A model generated the notes under the pieces. It was given only the letters and a program-made list of their open reading frames with translations. It made no database searches and was not told the DNA's origin. A stretch of 64,000 nucleotides of DNA from Leuconostoc rapi (GTDB lineage Bacteria; Bacillota; Bacilli; Lactobacillales; Lactobacillaceae), in NCBI RefSeq assembly GCF_016908715.1, contig NZ_JAFBEK010000006.1, positions 1 through 64,000 on the forward strand. Direction: 5' to 3'. The first letter of the stretch is position 1. Every line of letters starts with the position of its first letter. The position numbers were made by a program, and so were the translations under genes. Positions 24,388 to 26,169 of this stretch are shown piece by piece.

Positions 24388-24433
24388 CATTTTTATAGAA
24401 ATTAGTCTTACTTTTTTATAGAAATTAGTCTTA
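24388..24433. repeat. 23-base tandem duplication at the 3' end of clpP
   Basis: The unit CTTTTTTATAGAAATTAGTC plus TTA occurs twice in a row (24388-24410 and 24411-24433; one base differs), and a third partial CTTTTTTAT follows inside clpP. The second copy includes the clpP stop codon. Replication slippage is the simplest explanation. Confidence 0.85.
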
Positions 24434-25036
24434 CTTTTTTATGACAGGTTTTTCACCGGCTTTTGACAAAATACCATCAATGAAGCCATACTCTAAAGTT
24501 TCTTCAGCACTCATCCAATTATCACGTTCTGTGTCATGGGCAATTGTTTCCAAATCTTTATCTGATGCATCGGCTAAAATCTTATTCAACTTAGCACGTG
24601 TTTTAGTTAGCTGTTCGGCAATAATTGCCATATCAGTTTGTTGGGTACCACCCACTGCGCCACCCATTGGTTGATGAATGAGGTACTCCGCATTAGGTAA
24701 CATAAAGCGATGTCCCTTTTCTCCGGAACTTGCAATAATTGTTCCCATTGAAGCGGCCAATCCCATAACGATTGTTGTTACTGGTGCCTTAATAAAGTTC
24801 ATTGTATCTGTAATTGAGAGGCCTGCTGTCACAGATCCTCCTGGTGAATTAATGTACATTGAAATTTCTTTGGTTGGATCTTGAGCTTCCAAAAACAATA
24901 ATTGGGCAACAATTGACGTTGCCATACTGTCTTCGACTTCACCTTGAACCAAAATAATACGATCTTTTAACAAACGTGAAGGTAAATCATAACTTTCTCG
25001 TCCATTGGCTGTTTGTTCAATAACTCCTGGCCACAT
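24431..25036 (-). CDS. clpP: ATP-dependent Clp protease proteolytic subunit
   Basis: A 201-residue serine protease that forms the ClpP barrel and works with Clp ATPases in protein quality control. The catalytic triad is Ser96 (GLAASMGT), His121 (LIHQPMGG) and Asp172 ([10 protein letters not shown]). N-terminal loop and hydrophobic-pocket residues are present ([16 protein letters not shown]). AAAGGAG lies upstream of the ATG. A CIRCE element, the HrcA operator, lies upstream of its promoter, so heat-shock control by HrcA is likely. I do not see a clear CtsR operator, the usual control of clpP in lactic acid bacteria. Confidence 0.96.
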
Positions 25037-25132
25037 AATTGTTAGGCTCCTTTAATTTTAGAATACCTAACATCAACTACCCTATAGGCATCAAGCCATA
25101 ATTAGTATTGCGAACGCTGGCATACAGCATAT

Positions 25133-25177
25133 AGTTTAGTCGTGTTAGGTGGATTGACAAACATGCTTGTCTGTCAA
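25133..25177 (-). promoter_or_regulatory. clpP promoter overlapped by a 24-base palindrome
   Basis: Minus-strand -35 TTGTCA (25155-25160), 16-base spacer and -10 TAAACT (25133-25138). The -35 lies in an inverted repeat with arms TTGACAAACA (25154-25163) and TGTCTGTCAA (25168-25177), nine of ten positions paired. It is not a CtsR-type direct heptad repeat, and I cannot name the regulator. Confidence 0.6.
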
Positions 25178-25189
25178 CTTAATACTATT

Positions 25190-25216
25190 TTAGCACAAAG
25201 ACGACAAGAGTGCTAA
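25190..25216. promoter_or_regulatory. CIRCE element (HrcA operator) upstream of clpP
   Basis: TTAGCACAA (25190-25198), nine bases, then GAGTGCTAA (25208-25216). The consensus is TTAGCACTC-N9-GAGTGCTAA; the spacer length is exact, the right arm is perfect and the left arm has two mismatches. It lies just upstream of the clpP promoter, between whiA and clpP. Confidence 0.8.
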
Positions 25217-25224
25217 AATTTATT

Positions 25225-26169
25225 TTATAACTTACTTAAATCATAAATAGCCCCATCTTTAATCATTTGTGCCAGTTCTTTTAATTTCCGCATACGGTGG
25301 TTTGCCCCAGACTTACTAATATCCAACCGATCTCCTAACTCAGATAGGGAATCATCTGGGAACTCTAGCCGCGCCTTAGCAATGTCCCGTATTTTTGGTG
25401 GTAATAAGTCTAAATCGCCAATTGCATTGGCAATAAATAAAATTTGTTGTACTTGTTTGTTAGCAGCATCTGCCGTTTTTTGAATATTAGCCATTTCTGC
25501 ATTCGTCATACGATTAACAGAATTTCGCATATCACGCATCATACGAATATCTTCAAAACGCAACATTGTCTGTGTGGCACCAATAGTAGACAAAAAATCA
25601 ACAATTTTTTCAGCACGTTTCAAGTAAACGATATATCCGCCTGCCCGATCAGTTATTTTAGCCGGTAAGTTAAATTCTTTCATAATAATCAGCAACTGTT
25701 CAGCAAGTTCTTCATGGCTCGTATAAATTTCTAGATGATAATTTGCTTTTTCTGGGGAATTGACAGACCCAGCTGCTAAAAAAGCGCCCCGCAAAAAAGA
25801 ACGCCTTTTATCAACTTGGTTTAAAATACGGGACGGTATTTCAGGGTGTAAACCAAAAGGATCAACACCCAAATCGGCCATTACCTCATTGACTTGTGTT
25901 TTGAGTAACACACCGTATGATTTATGTTGCGAAATATGGTTATGATCTGCAACTGTTACCTCAACAATGATATCTGCGTAATTTTGCGTCAGTAGTGTAT
26001 ATATACGACGTGCAATCGCAGCATTTTCAGTACGCACAGAGACAGTCTGATCAAATCCTAATGTGCTCACCCCGTTCATCCGCATTAATGCTGATAGCTC
26101 TGCCTTTGCGTTGCCATTATGAACAAGTAACCCTGTTAATTCTTTTTTCACATCCGCTGCGTATGACAT
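25225..26169 (-). CDS. whiA: Sporulation/division regulator WhiA
   Basis: A 314-residue WhiA protein: an N-terminal LAGLIDADG-like homing-endonuclease fold without nuclease activity (about 1-200; [25 protein letters not shown]) and a C-terminal helix-turn-helix ([23 protein letters not shown], about 275-300). In non-sporulating Firmicutes it binds DNA and influences cell division and nucleoid segregation. Its ATG overlaps the stop of yvcK by one base (TAATG), so the two are coupled. The yvcK-whiA pair is conserved. Confidence 0.94.

Follow-up and report, generated by a model that had tools for sequence, protein, structure and literature searches.

Sequence Evidence for Control of clpP by HrcA in Place of CtsR in Leuconostoc, With an Apparent Fusion of the CIRCE Operator and the Promoter

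Comparison of Leuconostoc genomes lends good support to the loss of the gene for CtsR in this genus and to a switch of clpP from CtsR to HrcA, as the preliminary description of this DNA had proposed, in that ctsR was found in 0/19 genomes and hrcA, together with a CIRCE element upstream of clpP, in 19/19. According to passages of PMC6305308, ClpP is normally under CtsR, which senses heat directly in several Firmicutes, and part of PMC3842655 describes the presence of CtsR as quite consistent among lactic acid bacteria. The components found at Leuconostoc clpP are known ones, and their arrangement appears to be an unusual fusion of operator and promoter.

Loss of CtsR and Retention of HrcA

The gene for CtsR (PF05848) was absent from all 19 Leuconostoc genomes in a search that was positive in 34 of 60 relatives, and HrcA (PF01628) was present in 60/60 and, within the genus, in 19/19 Leuconostoc; the HrcA of this genome also matched TIGR00331 above the cut-off. 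In the Leuconostoc sample (n = 19), the kilobase compared showed complete identity of G017 with a record of L. pseudomesenteroides and of G009 with one of L. palmae. The preliminary description had suggested a genome search for both genes, which placed Leuconostoc without ctsR and with hrcA, and it had allowed for CtsR being present with an overlooked site; neither the gene nor its box was found. The best match to the CtsR box (RGTCAAA-N3-RGTCAAA) in the 19 Leuconostoc clpP upstream regions had 4-6 mismatches, and a hidden CtsR site at Leuconostoc clpP was rejected on this count.

In a wider sample of Lactobacillaceae, CtsR was present in 107 of 151 genomes and in 27 of 40 genera, which qualifies the view taken in PMC3842655 of a consistent presence in lactic acid bacteria, and HrcA was present in 31/31 further ctsR-less genomes. 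For 24 ctsR-less genomes of the 151, the assignment was made by absence from the table of CtsR matches. The Oenococcus genus (g46; G181 is identical to O. oeni) showed ctsR present and hrcA absent in 5/5 genomes, in agreement with the absence of hrcA published for O. oeni, where heat shock control is by CtsR only according to a passage of PMC6305308.

The clpP Locus and Its CIRCE

The window, that is, the whole stretch of 64,000 nucleotides of Leuconostoc rapi DNA that was analyzed, has the following features at clpP:

24431-25036, minus strand: clpP, 201 amino acids (NCBIfam NF001368, 277.9 bits against a cut-off of 249)
25047-25053, minus strand: Shine-Dalgarno sequence AAAGGAG of clpP, by direct reading of the sequence
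25153-25178, minus strand: hairpin of 11 pairs at the predicted 5' end of the clpP mRNA, containing the 24-base palindrome 25154-25177 (fold -12.2 kcal/mol, p 0.004 against shuffles)
25180, minus strand: approximate clpP transcription start, predicted from the -10, 7 bases after the -10 hexamer
25187-25197, minus strand (hexamer 25187-25192): extended -10 TGTGCTAAAAT, common to the right CIRCE arm, invariant in 19/19 and matched in a promoter scan with TG
25190-25216, minus strand: CIRCE, presumed HrcA operator of clpP, TTAGCACTC-N9-TTGTGCTAA, 2 mismatches, at clpP in 19/19 Leuconostoc
25211-25216, minus strand: possible -35 TTAGCA, weak, spacer 18, inside the left CIRCE arm (alignment and promoter scan)
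25225-26169, minus strand: gene upstream of clpP, presumably whiA, whose stop codon ends 8 bases before the CIRCE

A search of 25030-25330 revealed no terminator-like site. The 27-base CIRCE with exact N9 spacing that had been reported at clpP was confirmed: TTAGCACAAAGACGACAAGAGTGCTAA at 25190-25216 is the sole CIRCE-like match in the window at up to 3 mismatches (~0.02 expected from shuffles), and, read in the direction of clpP as TTAGCACTC-N9-TTGTGCTAA, it has one perfect arm and one changed at 2/9 positions, which amounts to 2 mismatches in 18 against TTAGCACTC-N9-GAGTGCTAA with a spacer of exactly 9. In the whole genome, four matches were found at the same limit, with 0, 0, 2, and 2 mismatches, the other three lying before clpE, hrcA, and a gene that we take to be groES. 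The CIRCE pattern read backwards, used as a control, also gave four matches in this genome at this limit, and the genome-wide count therefore proves nothing; the case for the clpP CIRCE rests on its place and its conservation, not on the number of matches. Across Leuconostoc, the backwards pattern is about as frequent as CIRCE, with 2-6 matches in each genome when 3 mismatches are allowed, and other genera mostly have 0-3.

A CIRCE lies upstream of clpP in 19/19 Leuconostoc genomes, with its first base 81-180 bases from the start codon and with exactly two mismatches, always in the clpP-proximal (promoter-side) arm. Among 300 shuffled upstream regions there was no site with up to 4 mismatches, and among 3120 there was one, with 4. 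Aligned without gaps, the 19 sites agree in all nine bases of TTAGCACTC and in all eleven of TGTGCTAAAAT, and 17 of the 18 arm positions are invariant; genus-wide the right arm reads (T/A)TGTGCTAA, not GAGTGCTAA, its first base being T in 13 genomes and A in 6. None of the nine spacer columns (0/9) is invariant, and seven hold three or four different bases.

Proposed Fusion of the Operator With the Promoter

The alteration of the right CIRCE arm creates TGTG before C and TAAAAT, which together form an extended -10 (TGTGCTAAAAT) with one mismatch among the nine fixed positions of the consensus TNTGNTATAAT, as quoted in part of PMC3179173. The genus-invariant predicted promoter, TTAGCA-N18-TAAAAT with TGTG before the -10, occupies 25216-25187 (minus strand) inside or overlapping the CIRCE, and its invariant AAT past the right arm is a promoter feature. 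Because these last three invariant bases fall outside the 27-base CIRCE, the site is read as a promoter and not as an operator alone. This arrangement departs from the preliminary description, in which the CIRCE lay directly upstream of the clpP promoter and a second palindrome covered the -35: the invariant promoter overlaps the CIRCE, and the palindrome belongs to the leader, where it begins 9 bases past the -10. The promoter scan gave four matches (1.1 expected in shuffles), one of which is the same CIRCE read on the plus strand and another of which takes half of the palindrome as a -35 (TTGTCA-N16-TAAACT, 25160-25133). A scan match by itself does not prove the promoter, since TTAGCA-N18-TAAAAT arises wherever AAT follows a CIRCE, as at the nine +24 sites described below. 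The weak points of the clpP site are the 2 mismatches in the CIRCE and the weak -35.

The register of the CIRCE to the promoter was compared with that in other genera. Outside Leuconostoc and g8, 26 of the ctsR-less genomes bear a CIRCE, and in these the best -10 hexamer begins 4-5 bases before it, so that the CIRCE would cover the start site; the same 26 genomes keep a TTGAC -35, which is TTGACC, as in the CtsR box, in 5/8 genera, and it is their left arm that fits the CIRCE less well. In Leuconostoc and g8 (20/20), the -10 shares bases with the end of the right arm, which is here the poorer arm, the single genome of g8 (G025) having the same layout as Leuconostoc. Among 63 other CIRCE sites at clpP with up to 4 mismatches, the left arm is poorer in 57, the right in 5, and the two are equal in 1, and the best -10 stands at -4/-5 in 39, at -17 to -19 in 12, at +24 in 9, and elsewhere in 3. 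The +24 register, as in Leuconostoc, thus occurs at nine sites outside Leuconostoc and g8, all of which have a CtsR box too. In its register, Leuconostoc differs from the other ctsR-less genera, which would suggest a separate origin.

Comparison Over the Lactobacillaceae

The clpP upstream regions of 156 Lactobacillaceae (100 ctsR-bearing and 56 ctsR-less) were scored with limits of 2 mismatches for the CtsR box and 3 mismatches for CIRCE. This set is the 151-genome sample minus 8, plus 13 further Leuconostoc; the excluded genomes are G068 and G113, in which nothing matched clpP at the cut-off, G103, whose clpP lies at the end of a contig, and the ctsR-bearing G155, G178, G156, G179, and G183. 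The ctsR-bearing genomes had a CtsR box at clpP in 96/100 and a CIRCE in 24/100, and the ctsR-less genomes had a CIRCE in 46/56 and a CtsR box in 0/56. Counted by genus (CIRCE in the majority of genomes), the figures were 10/13 ctsR-less vs 6/26 ctsR-bearing (p 0.002) and, at up to 4 mismatches, 10/13 vs 9/26 (p 0.02), in a test that ignores the species tree in both cases. Since 24/100 ctsR-bearing genomes carry a CIRCE at clpP, HrcA control of this gene appears often to predate the loss of CtsR.

The preliminary description had proposed a regulatory switch in this lineage; the switch from CtsR to HrcA is well supported by sequence, and HrcA sites at clpP are not peculiar to Leuconostoc. Uniqueness to the Leuconostoc lineage was rejected on the CIRCE counts of both groups, and a gain of HrcA control strictly after the loss of CtsR was rejected on the CIRCE sites of ctsR-bearing genomes, at clpP in 24/100 and at clpE in G029 and G032. 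Oenococcus, which that description had named for comparison, is the opposite of Leuconostoc in its repressor genes (ctsR, no hrcA, 5/5). Periweissella has both a CtsR box and a CIRCE at clpP. The clpP genes of three ctsR-less genera are without CIRCE in 10/10 genomes, namely g2 (L037, L199-L202, and L205), g7 or Convivina (L034 and L198), and g56 (L203 and L204); g2 is Fructobacillus-like, its nearest record being Fructobacillus broussonetiae with 76% over the compared kilobase. Identity of clpP to the query is 77-80% in the Oenococcus genus and 56-64% in other ctsR-less genera outside the Leuconostoc group, and these identities, taken without a species tree, suggest at least two independent losses of CtsR. 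Four of the 100 ctsR-bearing genomes (three of g18 and one of g51; L056, L245, L252, and L313) lack both a CIRCE and a clear CtsR box at clpP.

A Hairpin at the Predicted 5' End of the clpP Message

The 24-base palindrome noticed earlier exists, in imperfect form, at 25154-25177, where it makes a near-perfect dyad in the DNA of this genome; the chance estimate for this palindrome carries little weight, as the search pattern had been derived from the site. The second factor that had been suggested is not supported: at up to 3 mismatches the palindrome has matches in 3/19 Leuconostoc genomes and at clpP in this genome only, and what recurs is a hairpin in the same place of the transcript. The palindrome was rejected as a CtsR site, having no heptads, and as a conserved operator, with matches at clpP in this genome only among the 19 searched. 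An operator is thus unlikely, and the palindrome probably belongs to a hairpin with which the clpP mRNA is predicted to begin.

Folding of the first 35 bases of the predicted transcript gave a stem beginning at position 1-4 in 19/19 Leuconostoc, with 5' stems that differ in sequence between species. The fold reached p 0.004 in this genome (500 dinucleotide shuffles) and p <0.05 singly in 10/18 distinct leaders; the combined p of nine representatives was 4e-6, or 1e-6 with the stem required to begin at the 5' end (200 shuffles for each), values that serve as a guide only, the species being related. Two of the 11 hairpin pairs are G-U, which pair in sense-strand RNA only. The sense strand folded better than the antisense in 12/12 distinct long leaders; in six short, AU-only leaders the stem was weak (~-3 kcal/mol) and the antisense folded slightly better. 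With 50 bases folded, G002 favors another structure. At this length, no 5' hairpin of note was found in Convivina G024, the Fructobacillus-like G019, or G025; G024 and G019 are without TGTGCTAAAAT, and a different -10 served to place their start. Protection of the clpP message by a 5' stem-loop would be the simplest reading.

Proposed Mechanism and Alternatives

We consider it likely that, with CtsR gone from Leuconostoc, clpP belongs to the HrcA regulon together with clpE, groES, and hrcA, and that the clpP CIRCE is also the core promoter; the 5' hairpin may be stabilizing. HrcA would bind the CIRCE at 25190-25216, the right arm of which would bear the extended -10 while the left arm would sit where a -35 is expected, and, because the CIRCE would at once be the core promoter of clpP, bound HrcA would exclude RNA polymerase and repress the gene. 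The activity of HrcA depends on GroE, as stated in a passage of PMC3842655; with GroE occupied by unfolded protein, HrcA would become inactive and clpP would be derepressed along with the chaperonin, and breakdown by ClpP and folding by the chaperonin would probably be switched on together. Because the promoter-bearing arm is off-consensus, an operator of weaker affinity than that of clpE is expected, with basal ClpP left. In the transcript, the palindrome would fold the first ~25 bases into a hairpin, most simply a message-stabilizing 5' stem-loop. With both clpP and clpE under HrcA, the chaperonin load would serve as the signal for protease synthesis. A further proposal is advanced tentatively, as possible but short of probable: after the loss of CtsR, Leuconostoc may have remodeled one CIRCE arm into an extended -10 and tied Clp proteolysis to GroE genus-wide, with an origin separate from that of the other ctsR-less genera and with the related Oenococcus going the opposite way.

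Control of clpP by HrcA could also be combined with a promoter elsewhere, either at the end of the presumed whiA, with the CIRCE in the leader, or at 25160-25133, with the palindrome as -35. The first position would accord with the best -10 hexamer lying 4-5 bases before the CIRCE in 39/63 other CIRCE-bearing clpP genes and with TATAAA-like bases just before the CIRCE in this genome, and the other with the match TTGTCA-N16-TAAACT, but we judge this account unlikely, given that TGTGCTAAAAT with its AAT is invariant in 19/19, that the bases immediately preceding the CIRCE vary, and that the downstream stretch varies between species (by eye). Far less probable is an operator of a second regulator of clpP in the palindrome; the near-perfect DNA dyad of this genome would fit such an operator, yet the hairpins found at this position in other species differ from it, few genomes match the palindrome, and its two G-U pairs would form only in RNA. 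The reading to which we give the lowest probability treats the CIRCE as a relic without present function, with clpP either constitutive or transcribed by read-through from whiA. That clpP can do without a CIRCE is clear from the three ctsR-less genera (g2, g7, and g56) that have none there, and the lack of a terminator-like site in 25030-25330 would suit read-through; against a relic, the left arm and TGTGCTAAAAT stayed invariant in 19 genomes while the spacer drifted.

Relation to Known Systems

Chastanet and Msadek, in work of 2003, reportedly described dual control of clpP by CtsR and HrcA in Streptococcus salivarius. The Leuconostoc gene is similar in having a CIRCE at clpP, which stands beside a CtsR box in 24/100 ctsR-bearing Lactobacillaceae, and differs in that CtsR and the CtsR box are missing and that the CIRCE is in another register to the promoter. 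Operators of the HrcA-CIRCE (class I heat shock) system are known at groE and dnaK, according to part of PMC3842655; the clpP site shares with this system the 27-base inverted repeat with N9 and an hrcA gene with its own CIRCE in the genome, but its target is clpP, its operator would be the promoter, and one arm is altered genus-wide. Another lactic acid bacterium, Lactobacillus gasseri, is reported to have its clpL controlled by HrcA (Suokko, 2008, as mentioned in a passage of PMC3192767), so that there, too, HrcA takes the place of CtsR at a Clp gene; the clp gene and the genus are different, and the ClpL-like gene of the present genome is without CIRCE.

An expanded HrcA regulon and a mosaic of CtsR and HrcA were described for the Lactobacillaceae in passages of Ravcheev (2013; PMC3616900), a study whose set held two Leuconostocaceae genomes and whose table names L. 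mesenteroides; clpP has 0 occurrences in its main text, and its supplementary regulon tables may list the gene. A statement that HrcA alone controls Leuconostoc clpP was not found in the parts of the open-access literature consulted, which is a weak result. Oenococcus resembles Leuconostoc in that one repressor would be in charge of both gene sets, and differs in that the opposite repressor was lost there. Leuconostoc (HrcA only), Oenococcus (CtsR only), Periweissella (both sites), and Convivina (no CtsR and no site) form a natural series for the study of repressor replacement and the order of its events.

clpE and Other Putative HrcA Targets

One of the other CIRCE elements of the genome precedes a gene for a Clp ATPase of 688 amino acids, which is ClpE by its best solved relative; no NCBIfam model matched the protein above its cut-off. 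Within 300 bases upstream of the genes of this genome that we take to be clpC and a ClpL-like gene, there is no CIRCE, the best match having 7 mismatches. The clpE CIRCE has 0-1 mismatch in 19/19 Leuconostoc and 0 to 2 mismatches in G025 and in 8/8 genomes from other ctsR-less genera. Among three ctsR-bearing genomes inspected for CIRCE places, a site at clpE was found in G029 (2 mismatches) and G032 (1 mismatch), not in G031. HrcA control of clp genes thus appears to have been partly in place before the loss of CtsR, in line with the expansion of the HrcA regulon in Lactobacillaceae described in part of PMC3616900.

Further observations concern ClpE itself, which is without the N-terminal CxxC pair (zinc finger) in 18/18 Leuconostoc genomes with an intact start (L193:1328-3394, equal to G000 C3:22327-24393; L317-L336) and in G025; the clpE gene of G018 is broken near its start in this assembly. 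The zinc finger is kept in 8/8 genomes from other ctsR-less genera, and its co-loss with CtsR was rejected for this reason. A search for ClpE in G019 (g2) and G024 (Convivina) gave no close relative; each genome had just two matches, with identity of around one half. The hrcA gene (G000 C3, L196) has a CIRCE at 42 bases and a second one, with perfect arms and an 8-base spacer, ~85-110 bases upstream. Perfect or near-perfect CIRCE elements also stand before genes that, judged by eye, resemble those of small heat shock proteins in five Lactobacillaceae, both ctsR-bearing and ctsR-less (L348, L352, L358, L360, and L361).
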